A DNA stretch of 43,354 nt from Deltaproteobacteria bacterium. GTDB lineage: Bacteria; Myxococcota_A; Polyangia; JAAYKL01. The DNA lies in contig JAUVDV010000047.1 of the NCBI GenBank assembly GCA_030595125.1, positions 1 through 43,354 of the forward strand, given 5' to 3'. How positions within the stretch are numbered: the first letter of the stretch is position 1; the number at the start of each line of letters is the position of its first letter. The position numbers were made by a program, and so were the translations under genes. Under the pieces are notes generated by a model, which saw only the letters and a list, made by a program, of their open reading frames with translations, ran no database searches and was not told the DNA's origin. Below are positions 2,882 through 19,099 of this stretch, in pieces.

Positions 2882-5020
2882 TCATTTTGGAGGCCTGGCG
2901 TTCATCCTGATTGATCCTTCGTCAAAATGAAAGGCGTGAATCTGCGCTTTCAGGTGGTCTATCTCCCCTTCCTCGAACCCGAAGCCGCCGAAACGGACTT
3001 CGTGGTAACGCCTGGTTATCAGAGCCGGCGCCTCGCCGATATCGACGCCGAGCGCAACCAGGGATGAGAGATATTCGTTCGGTGTTTGATTTATTTTCCG
3101 ATCGAGCCCCAGTCGCGTCATCCGTTTTTGGAACTCCAGGTAGAGGGAGGTCGCCGCCGCCTCAGACCGGGTCATCACCCTTCGCTCCGATCCCCCGCGA
3201 CGCCGGTTCCACCGGAACCTGGAAAGCAGCCGAAACCCCAGCATCGCGAGAACCAGGACGGCGAAGATCAGTCCGACCGACTTCCACGAGATGTATTCGA
3301 ACGGGCTCGACGAGTTCCCCGAACCTTTCCACATGGCGGCGAGTGTTTTTGCCATCGCGACCTGGGTGGACGCGTCGTAGCCGATTACGTGCCTGTGCCA
3401 GCGCATTCCGATGGCGTCGATCACCATGGCGAGGGTGGACGGGGGGGCGCGTAAAATCCCGTCATCGGAGGCAGGTGTCGCATCCAGAGTGGTCCACACG
3501 CCGTCGATGTAGGCCTCGGTCCACGCGTGGGCCGATTTTGTTCTCACGGCGTAGAATCCGCCGATGGGGTTGTAGTCGGCGCTGGAAAACCCGGTGATCA
3601 TTCGGGATGGAATGCCGATGGTGCGGAGCATCAGCGTGGCGGAGGTGGCGAAGTGCTCGCAGGTGCCCGAACCCCTTGAAAAAAGGAACCTGTCGAGGGG
3701 CGTGTCACCCTTGGCGAGCGCATCTCCAAACTCGGAGACTGCGGAGTAGCGATACTTTTGCTTGAGGCCGGCTACCAGCTTTCGCGCCCGGACGGCATCG
3801 CTCCCCTGCCCCGCGAGATCGCGAGCCAGATCCGCCATGGGCTCTGTTCCCGGGGGTGTGGCCAGGTAGGCGGGGTCGTCGGATGACGTGCCCGGGAGCT
3901 TTGCGTCGGTGATGAAGACGCGGTACCGGATACCCACCCTTGAGGGATCCTCGTACCGGATCACTCCCGTGCGGCTGATCGAAAGCTTTCGCCTTTTCAG
4001 GAGTCCCACGGAGGCGATGGGTTCGGTCTCGATGAGACCCGTGCCGCCCGGCACGAACAGGAAGGGCGGGTTCATGGACTCGAGCATCATCGAATACCCC
4101 GGCGAGCCGGCGGGCACCGGGCGGTTGTCCAGGGAGTAGTGCTTTCCGCGAGCGGCCATGGGTTTCCAGAAGCGCTGCGGTGAGCGTTTCCATGTATCGT
4201 TCTCGTATACGTCGAACACGGCGCCCCGAAGCCTGAGGAACAGGCGATCCGGCCGGTCCGCGTCGGCATCGAGCGGCTCGAACCTGAGGACCACGATTTC
4301 TTCGCTGCGGGTGCGGTCCAGATCTCCGATCTTCACCTCGCTGGTAAACCCCGCCATGCTGTTCGTCGGGGAGAGCCTCCCGAAGAACCCCAGGCCGAAT
4401 CGGGGAAATCCTATGAAGAGGGCGATGGTGACCAGCAGAACGGGAATGCTGAGCAACCCCGTGCCGATGATGAACTTCCCGGATACCACCCGCCGCGAGG
4501 CGAGGAGTCTCCGCAGAGCGACGCGTCCCTCCACGGTGTCCTCGTGCCGAAACCGGTGCTCCATCTCGTTTCGCAGGTGGGCCAGCGAGAGGACGCTCGG
4601 ACACAGAACGACAAAGGCCAGGAACCCGACCGCGTAGGACACATCGAAGGTCGCGATGGTCGCGCCGATCACCTGCAGGAACGACAGGACGGCTATCTGC
4701 TGGTAGTCGGAAAAGCGGTTTCTGCCGCACATCTTGAGGCCCAGGAGGATCAGGGCGTACTCCAGCGCCGCCCTCGCAACGGGAGCGCCGCCGACCACCC
4801 GGACGACCTGGACCAGGAGCGTCGCGAGCATCAACGCCGCGAGCACCCGCCGATACCGGACGGTCGCGACAAGGGGCGGCTCCAGAAACCAGCTCGCCAC
4901 GAGCAGGACACCGAACCCCACCGCAACCGGGAGCCCCACCTCGCCCGACAGGATCATGGGGGTCGATGCGGCCAGAGCCATGAGGAACGTCAACAGCTTC
5001 TGTGTGGCCGCGAACCTCAT
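2882..5020 (-). CDS. TgpA-like membrane protein: DUF3488 plus periplasmic transglutaminase-like domain
   Basis: The 712-aa protein has an N-terminal bundle of hydrophobic helices (about residues 1-220, with one more near 570-590), a large extracytoplasmic region and a cytoplasmic DUF4129-like C-terminus. The transglutaminase-like core shows the catalytic triad: Cys454 in SGTCEHFAT, His498 in KSAHAWTEAY and Asp513 in TTLDATP. By family knowledge (TgpA), this domain faces the periplasm and acts as a peptidase or transamidase, probably on envelope proteins. It is the last gene of the MoxR-DUF58-transglutaminase set, and its ATG overlaps the DUF58 stop as ATGA (5017-5020). The substrate is unknown. 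Confidence 0.9.
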   Translation of the reverse strand: MRFAATQKLLTFLMALAASTPMILSGEVGLPVAVGFGVLLVASWFLEPPLVATVRYRRVLAALMLATLLVQVVRVVGGAPVARAALEYALILLGLKMCGRNRFSDYQQIAVLSFLQVIGATIATFDVSYAVGFLAFVVLCPSVLSLAHLRNEMEHRFRHEDTVEGRVALRRLLASRRVVSGKFIIGTGLLSIPVLLVTIALFIGFPRFGLGFFGRLSPTNSMAGFTSEVKIGDLDRTRSEEIVVLRFEPLDADADRPDRLFLRLRGAVFDVYENDTWKRSPQRFWKPMAARGKHYSLDNRPVPAGSPGYSMMLESMNPPFLFVPGGTGLIETEPIASVGLLKRRKLSISRTGVIRYEDPSRVGIRYRVFITDAKLPGTSSDDPAYLATPPGTEPMADLARDLAGQGSDAVRARKLVAGLKQKYRYSAVSEFGDALAKGDTPLDRFLFSRGSGTCEHFATSATLMLRTIGIPSRMITGFSSADYNPIGGFYAVRTKSAHAWTEAYIDGVWTTLDATPASDDGILRAPPSTLAMVIDAIGMRWHRHVIGYDASTQVAMAKTLAAMWKGSGNSSSPFEYISWKSVGLIFAVLVLAMLGFRLLSRFRWNRRRGGSERRVMTRSEAAATSLYLEFQKRMTRLGLDRKINQTPNEYLSSLVALGVDIGEAPALITRRYHEVRFGGFGFEEGEIDHLKAQIHAFHFDEGSIRMNARPPK

Positions 5021-6066
5021 GCGACCGCTTCTGGCCGTCGACCGATGACGATGGCCTCCGCGCTTCGACCCACGGGGGCGGGCCCCCGCGCGATCCGTTT
5101 TGGATCGAGAAGAGCCAGGTGCTCCAGTAACCTGACGGCTCCGACGCCGCCGCCTGTCTCCAGGCCGACCGATCCCGAGGTTACCAGTCTGATGTTCAGG
5201 CCGCGCGCCGTCATCCGGCGGATCAGGGTGGCGGCCACGCTGATATCGTGCTCCACGTTTTCGAGGGCAACGTCGGTCCCGTCGACGGGTGACGCATCAA
5301 GGACAATCTCCACAAATCCCTCGGCATCGCGCTCGGTCTCCCTCACCACGGGGCGCCCGAGCCGGGCCGTCGACCTCCAGTCCACTCGGCGCGAATCGTC
5401 GCCCGGGACCATCTCTCGCAGTTCCAGGAAATCCTGGCCCGATCCGCACACCCCGGATTGCAGGGCGCCCTCGTTCGTCATGGACGTGCGCGGGGGCGCG
5501 TCAACGGGGACGCTCGCCGGCAATACGATCACTTCGTCTTTCAGATCGATGAACCGGGTCTTTTCGAAGAGGCCGAAGGGAAAGCGCGTGGAGACGATAG
5601 TCCCGTCGAAATGCGAGAGGCCCCGAATAGGCAACTCACCCCGGTAGGCGATCGATCTCTCCGATCCCGGCCCGATCTTGAGAAAGAAACATCGCCTGCG
5701 AAAGGGGCGCCCGTCTATCTCGTCGCGCAGCTCCACGCTGAAGGACGCGGCCCAGCGCTTGTCGTTTTTCAGGGCGAGCTGTGCGGGGAAGATGGTATTG
5801 GCCTCCACCCTTCTGGGTACACGCCTGGTTATCGTGACGTTCCGCAGGGTGATCTCCGAGAGGATGCCGCTGACGATGATCATCCCGAGCATCATGCCCA
5901 GGACGAGGAACAGGAGGTTGTTTCCGGTGTTCACCGCGGCAAAGCCGACTCCCAGGGAGATGAGGACGAAGACCTTGCCGTCCCGCGTGAAGGTCAGGCC
6001 TCGCGGCATGAGCCTTCGCCTCGGTTTTATCCGTGGCTGCGGGTGCTCGGGCCGCGCGTTTTTCAA
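5017..6066 (-). CDS. DUF58 domain protein of the MoxR-associated set
   Basis: This 349-aa protein has a basic N-terminus, two hydrophobic segments (about 32-47 and 50-69), a beta-rich middle and a C-terminal von Willebrand A-like DUF58 domain. The hallmark DFLELREMVPGDDSRRVDWR lies near residues 208-232. DUF58 proteins are typically partners of MoxR ATPases and may present clients to them at the membrane. Translation starts at a TTG that overlaps the MoxR stop (TTGA, 6063-6066). It ends overlapping the transglutaminase start, so the three are translationally coupled. Confidence 0.9.
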   Translation of the reverse strand: MKNARPEHPQPRIKPRRRLMPRGLTFTRDGKVFVLISLGVGFAAVNTGNNLLFLVLGMMLGMIIVSGILSEITLRNVTITRRVPRRVEANTIFPAQLALKNDKRWAASFSVELRDEIDGRPFRRRCFFLKIGPGSERSIAYRGELPIRGLSHFDGTIVSTRFPFGLFEKTRFIDLKDEVIVLPASVPVDAPPRTSMTNEGALQSGVCGSGQDFLELREMVPGDDSRRVDWRSTARLGRPVVRETERDAEGFVEIVLDASPVDGTDVALENVEHDISVAATLIRRMTARGLNIRLVTSGSVGLETGGGVGAVRLLEHLALLDPKRIARGPAPVGRSAEAIVIGRRPEAVA

Positions 6067-7007
6067 AGGGGGATCTCCAGGGAGTCGACGATCTCCGCGA
6101 TTGCCCGCGCCGCCGTTTCCCTGTCCTGCACACTGTCACCGCTGGCCCCCGCAGGGATCACCCGGTGGGTCAGCACCGACGTGGCCAGGCCCTTGATGTC
6201 GTCGATGAGGCAGTAGTCCCGCTCCTTCAAAGTGGCCATCGCTCTGCTTGCCCGGTGGAGGTCCATTCCACCCCGGGGGCCGACGCCCATGGCGAGCAAA
6301 TCCGTTGTGCGGGTTCGGGCCACGAGCTCCATGAGGTAGTCGAGCACGGTGTCGTCCATCTTCACCCGATCCACCTGGGCGACCAGGTCGGGCATGGTCT
6401 GCGCCGAAATGACCGGCTCCACGAGATCGACCGGATCGTCGAGGGTCTGCCGGCTCACCACGAGGCGCTCTGCATCCCGGTCCGGGTATCCCATGTTTAT
6501 CCTCATCATGAATCGATCAAGCTGGGATTCCGGAAGCGGGTACGTCCCGTGCTGCTCCTGCAGATTTTGTGTCGCCACGACCATGAAGGGATCCGGGAGC
6601 GGCAACGGACGGCCGTCCACGGACACCTGCCGCTCGCTCATGGCTTCGAGCAATGCGGACTGGGTCTTGGGGGGCGCCCGGTTGATCTCGTCGGACAGAA
6701 CCACGTTTCCAAAAACAGGCCCGGGCTTGAACACGAACTCGCTGCTGGAAGGATTCCATACAGAGACCCCGGTAATATCTGCGGGCATGAGATCGGAGGT
6801 GAACTGGACCCTGCGGAATTCGCCGCCGGACGCCTTTGCCAGCGCTCTTGCGAGGGTGGTCTTGCCAACGCCGGGCACATCCTCGATGAGCAGGTGACCA
6901 CCGGCGATAAAGGAGCACGCGGCCAGCTCTACCGCCTCTTTCCTGCCCAGGACGGCCCGCCCGATCATCTGTACGAGCTTGCCTGGAATACCTTCAACCG
7001 TCGTCAT
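6063..7007 (-). CDS. MoxR-family AAA+ ATPase
   Basis: The 314-aa cytoplasmic AAA+ ATPase has Walker A DVPGVGKTT at residues 43-51, Walker B VVLSDEINRAPP with Asp106-Glu107, a sensor-1 stretch with ATQN and an alpha-helical lid. MoxR ATPases are chaperone-like and work with DUF58/VWA proteins in maturation or remodelling of protein complexes. The ATG at 7007 has a GGAAGGA ribosome site. It sits 32 nt after the kinase gene and overlaps the DUF58 gene, so it belongs to the same transcription unit as both. The client protein is not evident. Confidence 0.95.
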   Translation of the reverse strand: MTTVEGIPGKLVQMIGRAVLGRKEAVELAACSFIAGGHLLIEDVPGVGKTTLARALAKASGGEFRRVQFTSDLMPADITGVSVWNPSSSEFVFKPGPVFGNVVLSDEINRAPPKTQSALLEAMSERQVSVDGRPLPLPDPFMVVATQNLQEQHGTYPLPESQLDRFMMRINMGYPDRDAERLVVSRQTLDDPVDLVEPVISAQTMPDLVAQVDRVKMDDTVLDYLMELVARTRTTDLLAMGVGPRGGMDLHRASRAMATLKERDYCLIDDIKGLATSVLTHRVIPAGASGDSVQDRETAARAIAEIVDSLEIPL

Positions 7008-7039: not shown

Positions 7040-8971
7040 TTACCCCGCGTCACCCGCCTCGTCCAACGGCACCGTGATAGAAATAACCAGCTCGTCGTCC
7101 GGACCCTTGCTCATCACCACGTCACCACCGTGCAGCTTGAGTATTCTCCGGGCGAGGGACAGGCCCAGTCCCATTTCGCCGGACTCGCCGTCGACGTCGG
7201 CGGCCTCGAGAACGTTGAACACCGCCTCGATCCGCTCACGTTGCGCCGGGTCGATGGCTTTTTGCGAGTCAATGATCTCCACCTTCAGTCCCTCGTCTGT
7301 CTTCTTCGATTTGCGCACTCGCGATGCCTTGAAGACCACGGTTCCCACCTCCATGGCATCGACCACCCGGGCGATCAGGCTGAGCAGCGCGCGTCCGATC
7401 CGGTCCTTGTCCACCAGCACCGGGGGAAGGCCGGGTTCGAACTTGGCGACGAAGCCGACGTCCTTGGACGCAACCAGGCGCTGCGCCGACACCTCGCATT
7501 CGATGAGAATCTCCACGGACGGCACCCAGGCGCGTTCCAGATCGAAGTGACCGGCGTCCATCTTTGCCGTGTCCAGGATGTCGCCGATGAGCACGAGCAG
7601 TCGTTCGGATTCCTGGGAGATCTTGTGGATCGTCGATAGCTGGGGCGCGCTCAGGCTTCCGTCCATCCCCTTGAGCAGCAAGTCGGTGAAGCCGATGATG
7701 GAGTTGAGCGGGCTGCGCAGATCGTGACTCATGGTGGCGAATACACGCCCCTTCTTGTCCTTTGTCTTGTGGCCGGTGCTGATCTTCTCTTCCTGGTTAT
7801 GGCATACCTCCAGGTATCTTCGCCGCGCCTCCACGAGACTCAAGTCTATCTGCGAGATCTGCGAGACGGGCGAGGGGATCGGGGGTTTTAGATCCATGTC
7901 CCAAAAAGCATCGACGGCGGCGACGCGCTCCTCGAGGCGCAACCGGATCCAGCTTCCCAGTCTCATGGAGATCAGCGCGCTGCCGAACGCGGCGGCCAGG
8001 ACAAGGGCGACGATGATGTGCCAGAACATGGTTCGGTCTGCGTTGCCGACCAGACGCACTCCGACCACGTCTCTCCCGTCTTTCAACGTGTTCCACACCA
8101 CGGCGGTGCCCAGACGATCTTCCACCATGATTCCACGGGAGCGGCCGATAATAGCCGCCTCTATGGCTGCGGCCTCCTTCTCGTCACCCCCGCCGCGCCA
8201 TCGGCCGTCCTCACCCATTACGAAGGGCGCCGCCTCGTCGAACCGGGTCAGGTTGTCGAAGACCGCGCCCGCTCCCGATCCGCGTGGTATGGGCGCCGCC
8301 TCGACGACACCTTCGATCAGATCGCTGTAACTCGTTATCAGGCCGTGCATCGACTCGGCTCTGACCACCATCCTCGTCACCAGACCCAGACAGATGGCGA
8401 TACCCGTCGCCGACACAACCAGGCCGAGGAACAGAGCGGTACCCGCCGAGCGTTGCTTTCCGAGCTGTATCGAGAACCCTTCTCCCACCAATCCGCCGGC
8501 CATGCGGCGAACCCGGGCCACCGTGCCCCGGTGAACTGCGAGGAGGAACATCGCCTGGGACACGAGGTAGATCGGAGCAAAATTAGCGATGGCGACAAAG
8601 GGTTCCAGACCGAATATCCGGGACCAAATCTCGATCATGGGCAGACCCACGACGACCGCAGTCGCAGCGGTCACCATCACCACCTTGCGGGGAAAATGGA
8701 CGATGGCGTCCCGGTCGCTTTGCGTCATATCAGTCTGCGTTCTGCGAAACCTCATCTTGAGGCGCGACGCGAAGATCTGCACCATCAGGATTTGAATTGC
8801 GGCGGCGGAGAAGGTCCCCGCGAGCACGGCGATGGTCTCGGTGATCCAGTCGCCGAAAGGTCCAACGGCCGCAGCGGGGATCGCCGCAGAGACGAGCATG
8901 ACCGGGGCCAGCAGCTTCATAAGGCTTCCGATCAACCGGGGACCGCGATCACTGTGGACAGACGCAGTCAT
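7040..8971 (-). CDS. Membrane histidine kinase with phospho-accepting His but degenerate ATP-binding domain (HK-A)
   Basis: The 643-aa protein has about six hydrophobic segments (residues 17-36, 45-68, 97-113, 125-146, 178-202, 316-337), then a linker, a HisKA helix pair and an HATPase-like domain. The H-box is canonical: His416 in TMSHDLRSPLN. The ATP-binding domain is eroded. The N-box position that should be Asn is Arg535 (ALLSLIARVVDAM), and the G1 box DxGxG reads DSQKA (568-572), keeping the Asp but losing both Gly. The G2-like GLGLS (601-605) remains. The reading frame is intact, so this is divergence and not pseudogenisation. The ATG at 8971 overlaps the upstream kinase stop as ATGA; frame upstream of it is out-of-frame kinase sequence. 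No response regulator is adjacent. HK-A may be phosphorylated in trans by the upstream kinase. Confidence 0.9.
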   Translation of the reverse strand: MTASVHSDRGPRLIGSLMKLLAPVMLVSAAIPAAAVGPFGDWITETIAVLAGTFSAAAIQILMVQIFASRLKMRFRRTQTDMTQSDRDAIVHFPRKVVMVTAATAVVVGLPMIEIWSRIFGLEPFVAIANFAPIYLVSQAMFLLAVHRGTVARVRRMAGGLVGEGFSIQLGKQRSAGTALFLGLVVSATGIAICLGLVTRMVVRAESMHGLITSYSDLIEGVVEAAPIPRGSGAGAVFDNLTRFDEAAPFVMGEDGRWRGGGDEKEAAAIEAAIIGRSRGIMVEDRLGTAVVWNTLKDGRDVVGVRLVGNADRTMFWHIIVALVLAAAFGSALISMRLGSWIRLRLEERVAAVDAFWDMDLKPPIPSPVSQISQIDLSLVEARRRYLEVCHNQEEKISTGHKTKDKKGRVFATMSHDLRSPLNSIIGFTDLLLKGMDGSLSAPQLSTIHKISQESERLLVLIGDILDTAKMDAGHFDLERAWVPSVEILIECEVSAQRLVASKDVGFVAKFEPGLPPVLVDKDRIGRALLSLIARVVDAMEVGTVVFKASRVRKSKKTDEGLKVEIIDSQKAIDPAQRERIEAVFNVLEAADVDGESGEMGLGLSLARRILKLHGGDVVMSKGPDDELVISITVPLDEAGDAG

Positions 8972-10413
8972 TCGGCCCCCGGGAGGATCACGGTAAACTT
9001 GGTCCCCTTGCCGATCACGGAGCTGACGCGGATCTTTCCGCCGTGCAATTCGATCAGCCGCTTGCAGATCGCCAGTCCGAGGCCGGTGCCGCGCTTTCGG
9101 CCGGTACGTCCTCCGAGCTGGCGAAATGTGTCGAATACGGTGGCCTGATCGAGGGAGGCTATCCCCACGCCGGTGTCCTCGACAATCAGTATCACGGAGC
9201 CGTCCTCTCGCCGGCTCACGCTCACGTTCACGCCGCCGGACTCGGTGAACTTGACCGCGTTGCTGACCAGGTTTGTGATCGCCTGCCACAGCCGCTGTCG
9301 GTTGCCACTCACGAAGGCTCGTTCATCGGACTTTGCATCCATCGAAAGGGAGAGGGACTTCTTTCCAATGCCTCCGCGGGCCACCTCGATCACGTCCGTG
9401 GCCAGCTCGGTCATGTCCACGCGCTCGAAATCGAGGTTCAGGTCATCTTCGAGCAAGGAGGAGAGATCCAGAATCTCGTTCACCATCTCTCTCAGGCGCG
9501 CGGCGGCCTTGAGAATAATCTGGACGTCCTCCTTCTGAGATCCTTTCAACTCGCCGTCCTCGCCCGCCAATAACCTCTCCGAGAGGGTGACCAGCTCGTT
9601 CAGCGGGCGGTATAGCTCCACCGTCACGGCCGATAGAAGGTTGTCCCTCTTGCCTTCGAGGGAATCGACTTCCTTTCGGGCGCTGAGATACTGTCCCATC
9701 TCGGAATCGAGCTTTTCCTTGAGGCGGCCTACCGCGTGGGACAATTCGACGAGTTCGCTGACCGACGGCTGTATAGCCGGTGAATGATCTGCACCGTCGG
9801 GATCCATCACCACCGCATTGAGGCGACGCACAATTTCCCCGAGCTCCGTCCGGTAGTCCAGCCCGAAGCACATGCCGAAGACCACCGCCGCAAGCATGAG
9901 AACCAGCGCGGCGACGGCCAACCGGATAAGCGGTTCCGGCCGGATGGCGGCAAGGCCCTCCTTGCGCACCGCCACCACCACGTTCATGCGGCTCAATGGC
10001 GGGCGAAGGCTCGTGGATGCCAACCTGTAAACCTCGCCGGATATGGTGGCCTCCAGGATCTCTCCCGCGAGGGCTCTCCGCAGCGTGTCACTCGGGATTT
10101 TCTCCAGGGGTGTGGGCGCCAGCGCGTCTCCGTGGGTGCCGAACAACCCGGTCTTGAGGTCCATTTTACTTGCCGCGCGCTCCAGGAGTTTGGGGCGCTC
10201 TTCATCGCCGACGACGGCGACACGGTCGGACAACCAGGCGCTCGCCACCCGGGCCTTGCCCTCCTCCAGACTGCCGTTGATACCGTTGAGGCGGGCCAGC
10301 ACCACACAGAACACCATCGCGACACAGATGATCGGGACGATCACTGCTGTCTGCACCACTCTGGTGGTGGCCGAACGCGGCCGACCCCTAAAAATAATAC
10401 CAGATAGACTCAT
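8968..10413 (-). CDS. Membrane histidine kinase-like protein with intact ATPase but no phospho-accepting His (HK-B)
   Basis: The 481-aa protein has two membrane segments (about 20-41 and 162-184) flanking a roughly 120-residue extracytoplasmic sensor region, then a HAMP-like linker, a dimerisation helix pair and an HATPase domain. The HATPase is complete: N-box NLVSNAVKF with Asn385, G1 DTGVG (413-417), an F-box region and G2 GTGLGLA (442-448). The H-box aligns without gaps to the family but reads SAVTVELYRPLN, with Val265 (GTG, 9619-9621) where the His belongs. No other His occurs in the dimerisation helices; the nearest is His226 in the linker. The start chosen is the ATG at 10413, which overlaps the end of the radical SAM gene by 26 nt. 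The stop overlaps HK-A. Confidence 0.9.
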   Translation of the reverse strand: MSLSGIIFRGRPRSATTRVVQTAVIVPIICVAMVFCVVLARLNGINGSLEEGKARVASAWLSDRVAVVGDEERPKLLERAASKMDLKTGLFGTHGDALAPTPLEKIPSDTLRRALAGEILEATISGEVYRLASTSLRPPLSRMNVVVAVRKEGLAAIRPEPLIRLAVAALVLMLAAVVFGMCFGLDYRTELGEIVRRLNAVVMDPDGADHSPAIQPSVSELVELSHAVGRLKEKLDSEMGQYLSARKEVDSLEGKRDNLLSAVTVELYRPLNELVTLSERLLAGEDGELKGSQKEDVQIILKAAARLREMVNEILDLSSLLEDDLNLDFERVDMTELATDVIEVARGGIGKKSLSLSMDAKSDERAFVSGNRQRLWQAITNLVSNAVKFTESGGVNVSVSRREDGSVILIVEDTGVGIASLDQATVFDTFRQLGGRTGRKRGTGLGLAICKRLIELHGGKIRVSSVIGKGTKFTVILPGAE

Positions 10414-12277
10414 AGTCCCAGGGGGTGCACCCGTTCTCGGACTCCAGGCGCCTGAGGTACTCGAATATGGGAACAATCTCTCCCACGTAGCTGCCCTGAT
10501 CGACGATGTTCTTCTCCCAGGGATGGAACTCGTAAACGCGGGTGCCGTCGGCCTTGATGGTGAGGATATCCCGATGCTGGGAAGCTCGCAGGTAGTTCTT
10601 TCCGAGGCGCGGAACGTTGTAGACGGCCTCGTCGGTGCGGGTCAGCCCGGGCATGAGCCTCGCCTCCTCGGATTCCTCCTGCAGGAGACGGGATAGGGGA
10701 ATGCGGTAGTCGGCGGTCTCGGTTTTTCCCTTGGGGAGGAAGGTGTAGTACGGATCTATGCCCACTCGCTTGAGCAACTGCCGTAGCAGCGTCGCCTCGA
10801 AACGCCGGGAGACGTAAAAGGTGAAGACCAGCTGATTGTACGCAGCGATCCCGCACATGCGGATCTTCTGGATGGCGTCGGCCATGTCCTCGTTGATCTC
10901 GTAGGGATGCTCCACGTGGGTGACTATTGCCACCTCCCTGTTCCGTGTGCGGTACTTCCCGAGCAGGGACGCAAACTCATCGGTAAACCTCATGGGGAGG
11001 GTCACCGGCGTACGCGTGCCGATCCGGATCCGCTGGATGCTGGGCAGCGCGGCCACCTTGCTCAGCAACTTGTCCAGATCGTCGTCCTCCAGAAGCAGGG
11101 GATCGCCGCCCGTTATCAACACCTCGTGTATGGCCGGGTGGTTTCCGAGCCATTCGATGGCCGCGTCGATCTTTTCCCAGGAGGCCATGGCGTTGGGATC
11201 GAGCACCTCGTCTATCTCCCAGTTTCGCTGGCAGTAAACGCAGATCTGGGGGCACGTATTGAACGGCTTGAGGATGGCAATGCTCGGGTAGCGACGGGTT
11301 ATGAGATCTATGGGGGACGTGTCGGCCTCGCCCATAAAGTCGAAGGCTTCTTCTCGGTTGTGCCGATCGGCGACCATCTTGTCGACGTACCTGACGGGCG
11401 GGAAAACCTGCATTCGAACAGCCTGGTCACGGTTTTCGCCGTCTGTGTCCATGAGGCTGAGATAGAAGGGCGTGACGCCGAACGGAATCCTGCTCTTGCA
11501 TGTGCGGCGTATGTTGTCCTCTTCCTGTGCCGACAGGTTCACCAGCTTCTTGAGGGTATCCGCGTCCTTGCCCACGTGTTCAACGTGCCATTTCCAATCG
11601 TCCCAGTCGTCCTGTGTGGCTCCCAGGGTATCGAGGATCTCGTCGCGCCTGTTTTTCCTGCGCTCCAGGGTTTCGGGCTCCAGCCCGTGGCGGTACTGCC
11701 CCATCCAACTATCCACGCGTTCCCACAGGGCGTCGAGCTCCCGCGAGCGCTTCTGCGCGGCTTCGCGACCTTCGTAATTGCCGGCCGTGGATTCCCGGTC
11801 GTACATGGGCTGGTCCACCGTGCGACCCTCGAGGCCCCAGACCAGATGGATCATTTCGGCGAAGAAACCGGGCTCGAGATCCGGGCGGGAGATGCCCCGG
11901 GCCACGTCCCAGAGGGCCCTGGCCACGCTGAACCCGGAGTCATCCTCGGACTTGCTCGAGAGCATGGATAGAAACGCCCGGGTGCAGTCGCGCGTCCTCG
12001 CAGTTGTCCGGTGCCACGGCTTGTTCTCGTCGACGGTGCTCTCCACCCGAAGCCTCATGGTCCGGTCCCTGAGGGTGTCCCTGGCGCCGTCCAGGGTTCG
12101 GCATCCCTTCAGCGGGTAGAGGAATCCCTCGCATTCTCTCTGAAATTGCTCCAGCGTATACTCGTCGATGGCGAGCAGTTTGCCCGGCTCGTATCCCTGA
12201 GGTTTCGGCTCGGCAGATCTGAGTCCGGCCGGGCGATCACTCTCTCGTTTTTTGTCGTTTTTCTTCAATATTTCCAT
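10388..12277 (-). CDS. KamA-family radical SAM protein (lysine 2,3-aminomutase-like) with long N-terminal extension
   Basis: The 629-aa protein contains the radical SAM cluster motif CPQICVYC (Cys342, Cys346, Cys349) that holds the [4Fe-4S] cluster for cleaving S-adenosylmethionine. KamA-like sequence surrounds it (ITGGDPLLLEDDDL, RIRIGTRTPVTLPMRFTD, VTHVEHPYEI). Classical aminomutases are about 400-470 aa with the cluster near residue 125-140. Here about 200 extra residues precede it, rich in charged residues and without a domain I recognise. PLP-dependent interconversion of an alpha- to a beta-amino acid is the family reaction, but the substrate cannot be assigned. It is first in a tight unit with the two kinases and follows a strong promoter (12328-12356). 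Confidence 0.85.
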   Translation of the reverse strand: MEILKKNDKKRESDRPAGLRSAEPKPQGYEPGKLLAIDEYTLEQFQRECEGFLYPLKGCRTLDGARDTLRDRTMRLRVESTVDENKPWHRTTARTRDCTRAFLSMLSSKSEDDSGFSVARALWDVARGISRPDLEPGFFAEMIHLVWGLEGRTVDQPMYDRESTAGNYEGREAAQKRSRELDALWERVDSWMGQYRHGLEPETLERRKNRRDEILDTLGATQDDWDDWKWHVEHVGKDADTLKKLVNLSAQEEDNIRRTCKSRIPFGVTPFYLSLMDTDGENRDQAVRMQVFPPVRYVDKMVADRHNREEAFDFMGEADTSPIDLITRRYPSIAILKPFNTCPQICVYCQRNWEIDEVLDPNAMASWEKIDAAIEWLGNHPAIHEVLITGGDPLLLEDDDLDKLLSKVAALPSIQRIRIGTRTPVTLPMRFTDEFASLLGKYRTRNREVAIVTHVEHPYEINEDMADAIQKIRMCGIAAYNQLVFTFYVSRRFEATLLRQLLKRVGIDPYYTFLPKGKTETADYRIPLSRLLQEESEEARLMPGLTRTDEAVYNVPRLGKNYLRASQHRDILTIKADGTRVYEFHPWEKNIVDQGSYVGEIVPIFEYLRRLESENGCTPWDYESIWYYF

Positions 12278-13631: not shown

Positions 13632-14852
13632 ATGACACGGTCTCAGTTCCTCCGACCGGGTATGGTGTTGGCCTCGGCAACGATGATGGTTGCGGTTTCC
13701 GGATGTTTTCTGTTCGGACCAAAGACCGAGTACATCTCGATTCTCGGCGGCAAGGTGGACGAGGTACAGGTCAGGCTCGAGGGAGTCGAGGGGGCCCTGT
13801 GTCCAGGAGAGGCCTACCAGGTGACCATTCGCGTGATGACCACATCCGGGAAGGATTACACCACCTGGCCGGCGCCAAAGCCCGACGAGAAGGCCGTAAA
13901 AACCGGGTTCATCGATTTTTCGGAATTCGAGTTCAAGCTGCAAGGAGGAGAGCTGGGGAAGGACGGCATGTTCCGTACCGATCCCGACGCCCTCGTCGCC
14001 GCGGGAACCGGCTACGGGATAGCGGTTGCGGTCAAGGACGACAACGCGGTAAACGCCCGGGCCTCCTTTACTCCCAGGATAGATTGCCAGAACACCGTTG
14101 ATTTCTCGGGTGACGACGGCGCCGATGGATTCGCGGGATCCGCCGGGACGGAACCCAGCGACGACGAGACAGCCGTGGGAATTCCGCAAGGCGGCCAGGG
14201 CGGTGACGGCGGATATGGAACCAACGCGGGCGAGGCGGAGATCACCTCTGCGATGGTCGCAACCCTGTTTCACAAGGCGGCGGTGCTGGTAAAGGTCGAG
14301 CCCAAGAACGGCGTGGTACGCCATTTCCTGCTGGATCCCCTGTCGAAGGACGGCTTTGTCGTCGACTGCGCAGGCGGGAACGGAGGCTCGGGAGGAACGG
14401 GCGGTAACGGAGCAACCGGGGGCAACGGGGGAAAAGGCGGCGGCGGCGGCGACGGGGGGGACGGAGGGATCATAAAGGGATTTTTCGACATGAATCAGAC
14501 GTCCTTGCGCAACTTCATGAAGTACGAACACAAGGGCGGCAAGCCCGGCGAGCCGGGAGCGGGAGGCGAGCCCGGAGGACGGGATTCGGAGGGACGCCCC
14601 ATGCTCGGAGGGCCCATCGGTGATCCCGGCGAGCCCGGAAAAGACGGGCCGTGGCCGGACATCCGTCCCGAGGCGGGCACCAACCTGTTCGCCGATCTGC
14701 CCGAGGGGGTCTTCGTCATGACGGATCCATGGGTTCCGCCCCCAGTGGCGGGTGTGCCGGATCCCGCCGCGTTTCCGGCTTCCGATCCTGCGGCGTTCCC
14801 GGATCCCGCACCCGCGCCGGTTCCCGCTCCTGCCAAGACGGTCGCTCAGTGA
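13632..14852 (+). CDS. Lipoprotein with glycine-rich and collagen-like Gly-X-Y region
   Basis: The 406-aa exported lipoprotein has a hydrophobic signal ending in the lipobox VSGC (Cys25). A beta-type domain follows to about residue 250. Then comes a Gly-rich stretch (GGNGGSGGTGGNG and continuation), a collagen-like Gly-X-Y segment (KPGEPGAGGEPGG; GDPGEPGKDGP), and a Pro/Ala tail with the repeat DPAAFP. The ribosome site GGGAGGTG precedes the ATG. The stop codon overlaps the GTG start of the large kinase gene (GTGA, 14849-14852), so the two products are made together, suggesting that the lipoprotein and kinase work in one pathway. The collagen-like part may form a triple helix or an extended stalk. 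Ligand and role are unknown. Confidence 0.85.
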   Translation: MTRSQFLRPGMVLASATMMVAVSGCFLFGPKTEYISILGGKVDEVQVRLEGVEGALCPGEAYQVTIRVMTTSGKDYTTWPAPKPDEKAVKTGFIDFSEFEFKLQGGELGKDGMFRTDPDALVAAGTGYGIAVAVKDDNAVNARASFTPRIDCQNTVDFSGDDGADGFAGSAGTEPSDDETAVGIPQGGQGGDGGYGTNAGEAEITSAMVATLFHKAAVLVKVEPKNGVVRHFLLDPLSKDGFVVDCAGGNGGSGGTGGNGATGGNGGKGGGGGDGGDGGIIKGFFDMNQTSLRNFMKYEHKGGKPGEPGAGGEPGGRDSEGRPMLGGPIGDPGEPGKDGPWPDIRPEAGTNLFADLPEGVFVMTDPWVPPPVAGVPDPAAFPASDPAAFPDPAPAPVPAPAKTVAQ

Positions 14853-17800
14853 ACGATACTCCGATCACGATGGCGCAGAGCTTCGGTCGGTACACCGTCA
14901 TCCGCAAGATCGGATCGGGAGGAATGGCCGAGGTCTTCCTCGCACGTTCCCGTGGCGCGCAGGGCACCGAGAAACTGCTGGTGATCAAGAAGATCCATCC
15001 GGCCCTGGCAAGCAACGCGCGGTTCATCGAGATGTTCGTCGACGAGGCCCGCGTGACCATGCGTCTCAACCACAGCAACATCGTGCAGGTCTACGCCTTC
15101 GAGCAAATTCAGGGAGATCACTTCCTCGCCATGGAGTACGTGGACGGCGGCGATCTTCATGAGATACTCACGGCCGCCGCGCGCCTCAACAAGCGCCTCC
15201 CGTTTGGGATATCGGCGTTCATTACCGCAGAGGTCGCCAAGGGGCTGGACTACGCCCACTCGAGGAAAGACGACCAGAGTCAGCCTCTGGATATCGTCCA
15301 TTGTGACGTATCGCCGCAAAACACTCTCATCTCTTCGGACGGCGCGGTCAAGGTGACCGACTTCGGAATAGCCCGCGCCAGATGGCTACACGAGGAGAAA
15401 TTTGGAGAGATCAAGGGAAAGCTCCGTTACATGTCCCCGGAGCAGGCTCGGGGCCTTCCCGTGGATCGGCGCTCGGATGTTTTCTCCCTCGGTGTCATGC
15501 TCCACGAGATGCTCGTCGGCCGCGCGCTCATATCGCTGGAAGATGACGTGGATCCCATGCCAATCGTGCGCGAGGGCGTGCATCCGTCCCCGTCCGAGGT
15601 CGATCCGTCGATACCCGGGGAGCTGGACGAGGTGGCGCGCCGGGCGATGGCGGTGGACCCCGTCGACCGATACGAATCGGCGAGGGAAATGGCCCAGGCC
15701 CTCGTGAGGTACCTTCACAAGGAAAGCACCATCTACGACAGCGCCGGCCTGGAGACATGGATAGAGGAGAACATGCCTGCCCGGCTCTTCGGGGATCCAC
15801 AACCCGAGATGGAGGATTGCACAACAGAGAGATCCTCGATTGTTTCCACATCCGACGAGGAGGAAACGGTCCCGTTGCGACCCCTGGGCGAGGTGGAAAA
15901 ACGGGTGGTGGTTATTGTCACGGCGCGCCTGTTGATAGAGGCCCAACCGGGCAGGGCCGCAGTGGACATCGAACTCAAGCGACTCGCCGCAGAGATCGCG
16001 TACAAGGCCGATGGCTTGCTGGAGGATATCCCCGACGGTCTGCGCATCTACCTGGGGTTGCCCCACTCCTCCATGGAGGATGCCATTCGGGGCCTGCGAC
16101 TCGCCAGTGACCTCATGGACGCCACCCGCGCTGTATCACGAGATCACAGGCTCCGCATCGATGCCTCTGCGGCGGTCAACCGCGGGTTCGTGTCCTGCAG
16201 ACGCGTCCGATCGACTGAGCAGCCCTCGTTCCAGCCGGAGCCCGGGTTGACCAACATGTCCTCGAACCTCCTGGCGTCGGCGAACGTCGGGGAGATCGTG
16301 GCAGGTGGTGGGGTCTACCGCCTGACGAGGAGAGATTATAAATTTTCGGCGCCCAGAAGCTCCATCGCCGGCGAGGACGCCTCTACGGATGAGGTGGGTT
16401 TCAAGGTCTACCGGGTGGAGGGCGCCAGGAGCCGACGGGAGCGGAGCCAGCCGCGAAAGGACTCCGGCGCGTTTCTCGGGCGCGACCTGGAAATCGGACG
16501 ACTTCGTAACATCATGGACCAGGCGTTCGAAGGAAAGACGCGCTTCCTCAAGGTCGTCGGGGAGCTCGGCATCGGCAAGACACGGCTCGTGCAACAGTTC
16601 CTGGAAGATCGCAAGGAGAGCGTTATAGAGGTGGAGAGTCTCTTCGTCGAACGGCACAGTCCTCTTGCCACGGTGGCGGCCGCGATACGCGCAACCCTGA
16701 ACATCGGCGACGACGGACCGGTCTCCAACCTGGATGAGATCCTCGAGCCGGCGCTGGGAAGCGCACCCAACTATCTTCGGCGGCAGGGGTTGCTCTTTTC
16801 GGATGTGTTGAGCTCCCCGGATCGGACATGGGCCATGGCGGACGGGCGCCAGCGGGAACTGATTCGTCGCGTCGGCTTCGGGCTCGGGGTTTTGCTCTCA
16901 CGCGCCTGCGCACACGGCGGCGCCATCCTCGTGATAGAGAACGCTCACTGGATGGATGGCCAGAGCGCTGACGTGCTCGCCGAGCTGGCGAGCCTGGACA
17001 GCGAACTCCCGATCCTGGTGCTCCTCCTGGGACGTCTGGAGACACTGTCGGATCGCGCGATAGCCGGTCTGGAAAAACTCGAGGTGGCGGAGCTGCCGGA
17101 CCCGTTGATCAAGCAGCTGGTTGTCGAACACCTCGGCGCCGGCAAGGACATGGAGGTCATCTCGGATCAGATAACCGGTCGCGCCCAGGGCAATCCTTTT
17201 TTTGCTGGCGAGATCATCGACTCCCTCATCGAGCGCGGAATCATCACCCCGGTAACAACGGCATCCGGCGGCGCCGACGGGATCAAGTATCGCCAGACCA
17301 GGCCCGGGGCAATCCGGCTTCCCACAACAATGGAGGGGCTCGCCGCGAGCCGCATCGACGCCCTGGGACCCCTGGACCGGACCACCCTCCGGGCGGCATC
17401 GGCCATCGGCGCAGTCTTCACCATCGAGACCCTGCGCGGACTGGTGGGCAAGCGCGTACAAGAGGAGGTCAGATCCCTGGTGGAGCAGGGCTTCCTGGTA
17501 GAGATGTCCCCGGATGAGGGCACCGCGACGACCTATCGTTTTCGCAAGGCGATGATGCGAGAAGCGGCCTATGGAGGACTGTCCAGAGAGGACCGGCATC
17601 GCATCCACCAGACCATGTCCGAAGAACTCATCTCAGGGGAAAACACCGGCGAGGCGGTTCCATTCACGCGTATAGCCTGGCACCTGGAGCACGGATCCGA
17701 TCACACCAGGGCCGGGGAGTACTACCTCAAGGGGGGCGAGGCGGCCATGGATGTCTACTCCAACCGGCGCGCCCTGCGGCTCTTCGACCGGGCGCTCGAC

Positions 17801-19099
17801 CTGCTACCGAGGGGCTCTCTCGAGCGGTTCGAGGCTCTGTCCCGGCGCCAGCGTTGCCTTCAGGATCTCGGCCACCACGCGGATCGAAAAGAAGCGATTT
17901 CGGAAATGATCGCCCTGGCAGCCGATCTCGAGGACCGGTCCTTGCAAGCCGAGGCGGCGAATCGCATGGCCCAGCTCCAGTATGACATGGCGGATTTCGA
18001 AGACTGCGCCGAAACGATATCCCGGTCGCTGGAGCTCGGAATGATCGCCGACAACCCGATGGAGCAAATACAAAGTTTGAGGCTCCTTGCCTACGTCTCC
18101 ATCGAGGTGAGCGACATGGGCAAGGCGCTCGACTGCTGCAATCGCGCCCTCGCGATCATCCCCCGGGATCGCGGCGGCTTGTACTCGAGGGGCCGCATCC
18201 TCGGCATCAAGGGTCTGGTGTTGCTGCACCAGGGCGACCTGGAGCGATCCCCGGCGTGCCTGGCCGAGGCCCTGGTGATCCTCCGTCGCCTTGGCAGGCG
18301 CAGAAACGAGTCCACGGTGCTGAGCAACCTGGCGCTCCTGGCCCAGGCTCGTGGCAACCTCGCCGAGGGAATCGATTTTCTCGAACGGGCAATCCTCATA
18401 GATCGGGCGAACCGCGATGTGAGCGCCCGCGGCCGCAAGCTCACAGCCACCGGGTGGATATACATGGAGATGGGAGACTTCGACAGCGGTCGGGCCCTCC
18501 TCGAGGAGGGCAGGCACATCTGCCAGGAGAACCGTGAGCCCATAGGAGAAGTGGAGGCCGATCTGGGGATGGCCAATCTCTATCTCGTCAAATCGGATCC
18601 AGAGGGCGCCCACGATATCCTCGACGAGGTGGCGGGCCGGGGGTTCGTCTCGCGAAGCAGAATCCTCCTCACACGTCACCGGCAATTAATGTCCCGGACC
18701 ATGCTGGATCTGGGAGATCCGGGCGGCGCCCTGGAGTCGGCGAACGAGGCGCAGGACATGGCGCGAAAGGCCGGGATGACCGGAGAAATCGCACACGGCC
18801 TCATCCACCGGGGGCTCGCCCTGTTACGCGCGGGCAAACCGCGCGAGGCGCTTGACGCGACAGACGAAATTGAGGATCTCATTGGGGAGTTCGGCGGGGT
18901 GAGGCGCTCGGAAATGATCTGGTACCACCGGGCGCGGATTCTCCACGCCGCAAAAGAACCCGACCTCGCTGCGCGAGCGCTGGCAAGAGCGAGAGCGGAG
19001 ATGGAGCGAAAGAGAGCCCTGATCGCCCGGAGCCGCCAGAAGACGTTCTACGACAATCACCCACTCATCAACGCCATCGTCGGGGGACTGCCCGATTGA
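14849..19099 (+). CDS. Multidomain Ser/Thr protein kinase: kinase, cyclase-like pseudo-domain, STAND-type ATPase, TPR
   Basis: The 1416-aa cytoplasmic protein has a kinase domain near residues 13-290: G-loop GSGGMAEVF (22-30), Lys47/48, catalytic loop HCDVSPQN (151-158, Asp153, Asn158), DFG 171-173 and YMSPEQ. The usual HRD Arg is Cys, so activation-loop control may differ. Residues about 350-525 resemble a class III nucleotide cyclase (DGLRIYLGLPHSSMEDA) but lack the metal-binding Asp residues. An AAA/STAND ATPase begins near 541 with Walker A GELGIGKTRL (about 570-579) and Walker B LVIENAHWMD near 695. Tetratricopeptide repeats fill about 950-1400. The GTG at 14849 was chosen because it couples to the preceding gene; an ATG 21 nt downstream is an alternative. 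The architecture is typical of Myxococcota PknK/transcription-ATPase-like kinases. Confidence 0.9.
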   Translation: MNDTPITMAQSFGRYTVIRKIGSGGMAEVFLARSRGAQGTEKLLVIKKIHPALASNARFIEMFVDEARVTMRLNHSNIVQVYAFEQIQGDHFLAMEYVDGGDLHEILTAAARLNKRLPFGISAFITAEVAKGLDYAHSRKDDQSQPLDIVHCDVSPQNTLISSDGAVKVTDFGIARARWLHEEKFGEIKGKLRYMSPEQARGLPVDRRSDVFSLGVMLHEMLVGRALISLEDDVDPMPIVREGVHPSPSEVDPSIPGELDEVARRAMAVDPVDRYESAREMAQALVRYLHKESTIYDSAGLETWIEENMPARLFGDPQPEMEDCTTERSSIVSTSDEEETVPLRPLGEVEKRVVVIVTARLLIEAQPGRAAVDIELKRLAAEIAYKADGLLEDIPDGLRIYLGLPHSSMEDAIRGLRLASDLMDATRAVSRDHRLRIDASAAVNRGFVSCRRVRSTEQPSFQPEPGLTNMSSNLLASANVGEIVAGGGVYRLTRRDYKFSAPRSSIAGEDASTDEVGFKVYRVEGARSRRERSQPRKDSGAFLGRDLEIGRLRNIMDQAFEGKTRFLKVVGELGIGKTRLVQQFLEDRKESVIEVESLFVERHSPLATVAAAIRATLNIGDDGPVSNLDEILEPALGSAPNYLRRQGLLFSDVLSSPDRTWAMADGRQRELIRRVGFGLGVLLSRACAHGGAILVIENAHWMDGQSADVLAELASLDSELPILVLLLGRLETLSDRAIAGLEKLEVAELPDPLIKQLVVEHLGAGKDMEVISDQITGRAQGNPFFAGEIIDSLIERGIITPVTTASGGADGIKYRQTRPGAIRLPTTMEGLAASRIDALGPLDRTTLRAASAIGAVFTIETLRGLVGKRVQEEVRSLVEQGFLVEMSPDEGTATTYRFRKAMMREAAYGGLSREDRHRIHQTMSEELISGENTGEAVPFTRIAWHLEHGSDHTRAGEYYLKGGEAAMDVYSNRRALRLFDRALDLLPRGSLERFEALSRRQRCLQDLGHHADRKEAISEMIALAADLEDRSLQAEAANRMAQLQYDMADFEDCAETISRSLELGMIADNPMEQIQSLRLLAYVSIEVSDMGKALDCCNRALAIIPRDRGGLYSRGRILGIKGLVLLHQGDLERSPACLAEALVILRRLGRRRNESTVLSNLALLAQARGNLAEGIDFLERAILIDRANRDVSARGRKLTATGWIYMEMGDFDSGRALLEEGRHICQENREPIGEVEADLGMANLYLVKSDPEGAHDILDEVAGRGFVSRSRILLTRHRQLMSRTMLDLGDPGGALESANEAQDMARKAGMTGEIAHGLIHRGLALLRAGKPREALDATDEIEDLIGEFGGVRRSEMIWYHRARILHAAKEPDLAARALARARAEMERKRALIARSRQKTFYDNHPLINAIVGGLPD

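Follow-up and report, generated by a model that had tools for sequence, protein, structure and literature searches.

How does a pair of adjacent histidine kinase genes work when each product lacks a different part of the catalytic machinery? Histidine kinases are usually treated as homodimers, with both catalytic halves present on each chain. The two kinases considered here, HK-B and HK-A, are encoded on contig JAUVDV010000047.1 (assembly GCA_030595125.1) of a Deltaproteobacteria bacterium, and by the window we mean the whole stretch of 43,354 nucleotides (nt) that was analysed. HK-B has a complete ATP site and lacks the phospho-acceptor histidine, whereas HK-A has the histidine and a degenerate ATP site. 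Judged from sequence, phosphorylation of HK-A by HK-B in a two-subunit heteromeric kinase is probably the best explanation for the pair in the window's family. The genes and the positions that matter are these.

8968–10413, minus strand: HK-B, 481 amino acids (aa), membrane sensor kinase without a phospho-acceptor His; proposed ATP-dependent kinase subunit
9439–9678, minus strand: dimerization and histidine-phosphotransfer (DHp) hairpin of HK-B, aa 246–325, with zero histidines; ratio of nonsynonymous to synonymous substitution rates (omega) 0.07–0.08 between same-genus genomes
9619–9621, minus strand: Val265 at the H-box His position of HK-B; the H-box reads VTVELYRPLN
8980–9303, minus strand: HATPase_c domain of HK-B, aa 371–478, complete (Asn385, DTGVG, GTGLGLA)
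9259–9261, minus strand: N-box Asn385 of HK-B; Asn in 75/75 HK-B proteins surveyed
9163–9177, minus strand: G1 box DTGVG of HK-B, aa 413–417; D, G and G invariant in 75/75
9070–9090, minus strand: G2 box GTGLGLA of HK-B, aa 442–448; glycines kept in 75/75
8971–8968, minus strand: ATGA stop/start overlap of HK-B and HK-A; 4-nt overlap in 58/75 pairs
7040–8971, minus strand: HK-A, 643 aa, polytopic membrane sensor kinase with a canonical H-box and a degenerate HATPase_c domain; proposed phospho-acceptor subunit
7700–7741, minus strand: H-box of HK-A, FATMSHDLRSPLNS, with His416 at nt 7724–7726; His in 81/81 HK-A proteins surveyed
7367–7369, minus strand: Arg535 at the N-box Asn position of HK-A; Arg or Glu in 8/8 unfused members of the window's family
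7256–7270, minus strand: degenerate G1 box DSQKA of HK-A, aa 568–572; Asp retained, GxG gone

The coordinates, residues and ATGA overlap given in a preliminary description of this locus were right; the one point to add is the orientation, the pair being on the minus strand with HK-B upstream, so that HK-B is translated first. HK-B consists of two strongly hydrophobic segments flanking an extracytoplasmic domain, together with HisKA and HATPase_c domains, and its only histidines (94, 210, 226 and 457) all fall outside the DHp hairpin. The H-box core around His416 of HK-A is MSHDLRSPLN, and the G2 region (EMGLGLS, aa 599–605) is mostly retained. Pfam scores were 59 bits for HisKA and 39 bits for HATPase_c in HK-A, and 30 and 98 bits, respectively, in HK-B. 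Neither protein combines the H-box His with the N, G1 and G2 boxes, as an orthodox HisKA kinase does. We rejected an annotation or start-site error as the source of the His-less H-box in HK-B; the hairpin contains no other His, and the same state recurs in two further genomes. The Thr/Asn residue of the E/DxxT/N phosphatase motif is missing from both proteins in the window's family, and the pair there may therefore be devoid of response-regulator phosphatase activity.

The complementary defects are neither chance nor a local accident. In the window's genome, the His is present in all 38 other HisKA domains with an alignable H-box, and besides HK-A the N-box Asn is missing from just one kinase-like protein. 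The pair, with identical defects, is also present at 87–89% identity in two further genomes of the genus. It could still be argued that HK-A and HK-B are both decaying without a joint function, as residues thought essential are missing from each. The reading frames are open in all three same-genus genomes, however, omega is 0.07–0.30 over all domains of the pair, and the pair has been maintained across at least 14 families. Between the same-genus genomes, the His-less DHp hairpin of HK-B (0.07–0.08) and the degenerate HK-A ATPase domain (0.16) have omega values near that of the neighbouring MoxR gene (0.12–0.14), and thus neither non-catalytic domain is decaying. Both are under purifying selection, and decay is largely refuted, with a probability that we consider negligible.

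Profile and protein searches, followed by retrieval of the loci, yielded 81 HK-A genes, with 75 complete pairs, drawn from about 14 families of a single class (probably Myxococcota/Polyangia). Profile hidden Markov models built from an initial set of pairs served to classify the sequences, and three loci (L134, L135 and L081) were excluded as other kinases. In every complete pair, HK-B immediately preceded HK-A, with both genes on one strand, and a contig end truncated each of the six HK-A genes that lacked an HK-B. The proposal that the two genes stay together thus held up, with no case of independent occurrence in this sample. Among the matches listed from 237 genomes sampled from the phylum, which is a sample and not a proof, there was no HK-A match at E<=1e-75 outside the class. 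The acceptor His was found in 81/81 HK-A proteins, and the N-box Asn, the D-G-G of G1 and the G2 glycines in 75/75 HK-B proteins.

Other features vary. The N-box Asn of HK-A is retained only in families f5, f18 and f26; it is replaced by Arg or Glu in the window's family, by Phe/Tyr in f7, f10, f13 and f20, mostly by His in f14, f25, f3, f30 and f31, and by Thr/Ser/Val in f11. The G1 Asp of HK-A is kept in the window's family and lost in other families. The His of HK-B is missing in 11 of 75 proteins, namely all eight unfused members of the window's family, both members of f20 and the single member of f3. At the former His position, the eight window-family proteins carry V, V, V, A, K, R, L and Q, six different residues as expected once constraint ends, and the adjacent Glu and Pro-Leu are kept. 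The Glu next to this position is present in 75/75 HK-B proteins, though the His is gone in 11, which hints at a structural or docking role.

Tallied over the 75 pairs, 53 combine a His-bearing HK-B with an HK-A that lacks the N-box Asn, 11 have lost both residues, nine have both, and in two HK-A runs off the contig. No pair combines a His-less HK-B with an Asn-bearing HK-A, and the states are nested in order. Co-occurrence of the two defects, a check suggested in the preliminary description, is thus not simple: HK-B loses its His only beside an Asn-less HK-A, but the commonest state by far is an Asn-less HK-A with a His-bearing HK-B. At the level of residues, separation of the acceptor His and ATP catalysis onto different proteins occurs in the window, its two same-genus relatives, the rest of the family except genome G007, and families f3 and f20. 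The term "obligate" for the heteromer fits these lineages (f3 and f20 group together) and does not extend to the others, as reciprocal loss is confined to them.

A natural single-chain fusion of both transmitters is encoded in genome G049 (L076:5332–7125, plus strand). This 597-aa protein has two HisKA and two HATPase_c domains, almost no sensor part, and a degenerate second, HK-A-type ATP site. Because the genes are never apart in this sample, the acceptor half of HK-A and the ATP half of HK-B are invariant, and a fusion exists, action of HK-B on HK-A is the most likely reading. If HK-A is without ATP catalysis and HK-B is in turn without its His, HK-B would have to phosphorylate HK-A. HK-B would thus provide the ATP-binding catalytic domain and phosphorylate His416 of HK-A, and phosphorylated HK-A would hand on its phosphoryl group to a response regulator whose gene lies elsewhere. 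As HK-A and HK-B are each membrane sensors, output would depend on two input domains, possibly with the AND-gate logic put forward in the preliminary description. From the same patterns we infer a physical complex, phosphotransfer in the direction from HK-B to HK-A, and an operon at the RNA level.

How might such a pair have arisen? When a tree was built from the concatenated pairs with the trait columns removed, the His state of HK-B changed twice and the Asn state of HK-A at least twice. A second tree, which placed HK-A among other kinases of the genome, recovered HK-A as one supported clade (Shimodaira–Hasegawa-like approximate likelihood ratio support of 99) with Asn-bearing f5 and f18 sequences at its base. 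On the simplest reading, the ancestral HK-A was a complete kinase whose ATP site was lost two to four times, with the differing replacement residues favouring more events, and the His of HK-B was lost twice, each time in an Asn-less HK-A background. Two related complete kinases would thus have become a co-translated pair, the ATP site of HK-A would then have been lost in most lineages, and the His of HK-B would have been lost later, only where HK-A was already unable to use ATP. The earlier idea that one kinase was divided into two is probably wrong, as HK-A is a separate old clade with intact-ATP-site genes at its base. Taken as a whole, the following history seems to us moderately likely: in one bacterial class, an old tandem of complete membrane kinases would have become stepwise, by repeated loss of HK-A ATP catalysis and then of the HK-B His, a two-sensor kinase that is an obligate heteromer and is tied to a MoxR-DUF58-TgpA gene cluster, and every intermediate would survive in related families.

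Several observations weigh against a two-subunit kinase of this kind or limit how firmly it can be held. Few independent events underlie the association between the two losses, a paired-change test had two pairs and no power, and the order of the losses is for this reason only a best reading. The HK-A survey profile was derived from HK-A sequences and may favour intact H-boxes. A receiver domain or response regulator was sought on the window contig and none was found. Of the survey loci that contain a pair, only four have a regulator close by: L127, L105, L138, where an NtrC-type regulator directly follows HK-A, and L059, where one of this type lies downstream in the fusion cluster of G007. 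When the L138 and L059 regulators were used as queries in the window's genome, they retrieved a spread of NtrC-family proteins at 37–52% identity, with best hits that disagreed and no clear orthologue. At least one member of the window's family is wired differently, as G007 encodes a rearranged 1042-aa fusion (L059:6971–10099, minus strand) in which the HK-B sensor and a His-less DHp region, without the HK-B ATPase domain, are fused with an HK-A of complete length. This fusion is followed, on the same strand, by a canonical complete third kinase (5313–6974) and then the NtrC-type regulator (3949–5328).

Geometry raises a further difficulty. Single-chain AlphaFold2 models of HK-B and HK-A (mean predicted local distance difference test scores of 79.8 and 75.7, respectively) show the expected sensor, DHp, and catalytic and ATP-binding parts, and one loop type is common to both DHp hairpins. 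The HK-B transmitter matches HK853, ShkA, RetS and DivL, and GacS and RetS are among the best matches of HK-A. According to a passage in PMC5956149 that cites Ashenberg 2013, loop handedness sets whether a histidine kinase phosphorylates in cis or in trans. ArcB, which is among the kinases similar to the pair by profile, is listed there as cis (PMC5956149). In a cis heterodimer, HK-B could not phosphorylate His416; the reaction would then require a loop of trans handedness, or homodimers in contact with each other. Of the suggestion that HK-B phosphorylates HK-A in trans, action of HK-B on HK-A stands as the most likely reading by sequence, and a strict DHp heterodimer would need trans geometry.

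Other explanations keep the two proteins and drop phosphotransfer between them. HK-A might be a non-catalytic modulator like RetS and HK-B a pseudokinase, both binding another kinase. The best structural and sequence matches of HK-A include kinase-inactive RetS and the RetS-GacS co-complex 7n0e; the missing nearby regulator and phosphatase residues would fit as well. A purely structural role, however, leaves the His of 81/81 HK-A proteins and the ATP-site residues of 75/75 HK-B proteins unexplained, and we think this arrangement unlikely. In its RetS-type form, a degenerate partner beside a complete kinase, it does not describe the window's family, where HK-B is His-less; in families with an intact HK-B it is possible. 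About equally improbable is that the two are neighbours rather than enzyme and substrate, with HK-B phosphorylating some other acceptor (an Hpt protein or a kinase) and another kinase phosphorylating HK-A. Multikinase networks such as GacS/RetS/LadS exist (PMC5992135, PMC12189002), and the window's genome has ~40 other kinases. Against this, the two genes are strictly adjacent, in one order and translationally overlapping, in many families; a natural fusion exists; and the HK-B His is lost only beside an Asn-less HK-A.

Alternatively, HK-A might have kept its kinase activity through an atypical ATP site, with Arg535, Asp568 and most of the G2 box, and HK-B would be a helper. The window's family does keep the G1 Asp and a G2 region that is only partly changed, and the HATPase_c match is above the Pfam cut-off. 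The N-box Asn and the GxG of G1 were nevertheless lost together, the G1 Asp is also lost in other families, and the HK-B site never varies. Moreover, it is established in histidine kinase biochemistry that substitutions of the N-box Asn abolish kinase activity. The N-box mutant N419D of MtrB, for example, has served as a kinase-defective control (PMC5956149). We regard an active HK-A as very unlikely, and phosphorylation of HK-A by HK-B as the reading to compare with known systems.

DivL, a sequence match for HK-B, carries a Tyr at the H-box His position. In Caulobacter, this pseudo-histidine kinase controls a partner kinase, CckA (PMC4211667, PMC9430884). CckA is complete, unlike HK-A, and DivL passes information in the reverse direction, by sensing a phosphorylated regulator. 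The Rv0600c/Rv0601c kinase pair of Mycobacterium tuberculosis may be a further split kinase, and the two kinases are reported to cooperate with TcrA. The closest analogue in how it works is CheA3/CheA4 of Rhodobacter sphaeroides, in which neither protein autophosphorylates alone and one gives the kinase and the other the phospho-acceptor His (PMC3591291). Those proteins are of the CheA class, are encoded in a cytoplasmic chemotaxis cluster and lack whole domains (P1, or P3/P4), whereas substitutions have disabled HK-A and HK-B, which are membrane HisKA sensors of full length; the pair has HisKA and HATPase_c domains only, with membrane segments and without a P1 Hpt domain, P3–P5 domains or a chemotaxis cluster. 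In Synechocystis, Hik36/Hik43 similarly spread one histidine kinase over two genes whose products interact (PMC7656254), but there a CheA-type kinase is cut into Hpt and catalytic parts and the genes are far apart. RetS-GacS (and PA1611) of Pseudomonas resemble the pair as two interacting membrane HisKA sensors, one of them kinase-inactive (PMC5992135, PMC12189002; PDB 7n0e, 6dk7). They differ in that GacS is complete and inhibited by RetS, there is no reciprocal loss, and both are hybrid kinases, whereas HK-A and HK-B have no receiver domains.

The same two defects as in HK-B and HK-A were combined in a laboratory complementation assay of MtrB H305Q and N419D (PMC5956149). Those mutants were of one protein and did not complement because MtrB works in cis, whereas the defects of HK-A and HK-B are natural and lie in two proteins. 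Evolution thus seems to have carried out the classic His-minus/Asn-minus complementation experiment over a long time, with stages before, between and after the losses surviving. CheA3/CheA4 and Hik36/Hik43 already establish the principle of a split kinase, and what seems new here is the paired, full-length membrane HisKA form; in the open-licence literature, we found no description of such sensors with complementary catalytic losses that are still paired. The pair offers a test bed for two questions: how a homomeric enzyme turns into an obligate heteromer, and whether kinases with two sensors integrate signals.

The genes around the pair are as follows.

10388–12277, minus strand: radical-SAM gene, upstream; 26-nt overlap with the start of HK-B
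6063–7007, minus strand: MoxR-type AAA+ ATPase, 32 nt downstream of HK-A; conserved neighbour
5017–6066, minus strand: DUF58 gene, 4-nt overlap with MoxR; conserved neighbour
2882–5020, minus strand: TgpA_N/transglutaminase/DUF4129 membrane protein gene, 4-nt overlap with DUF58; conserved neighbour

MoxR, DUF58 and TgpA-like transglutaminase genes lie downstream of the pair in loci of f1, f7, f10, f13, f20, f25 and f31, and many f11 and f14 loci are without this cassette inside the stretches read. Because it trails the pair in several families, the cassette is old. The recurrent linkage (2882–7007, minus strand, in the window) suggests that the pair controls or senses for the cluster, and the pair may bring two-component input to this widespread and poorly understood set of genes. 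The radical-SAM gene adjoins the pair in the window's genus and is ~1.9 kb away in one other family member (L062). Elsewhere in the window's genome, contig C186 encodes a kinase-like protein of ~244 aa (L188:959–1690, minus strand) with an H-box His, Thr in place of the N-box Asn and a G1 box reading DQGAP, which may be another dependent acceptor kinase. Finally, a long protein in which a serine/threonine kinase is joined to an ATPase and a repeat region, as read from the sequence, is encoded at 14651–19099 (plus strand) of the window and matches several survey loci.

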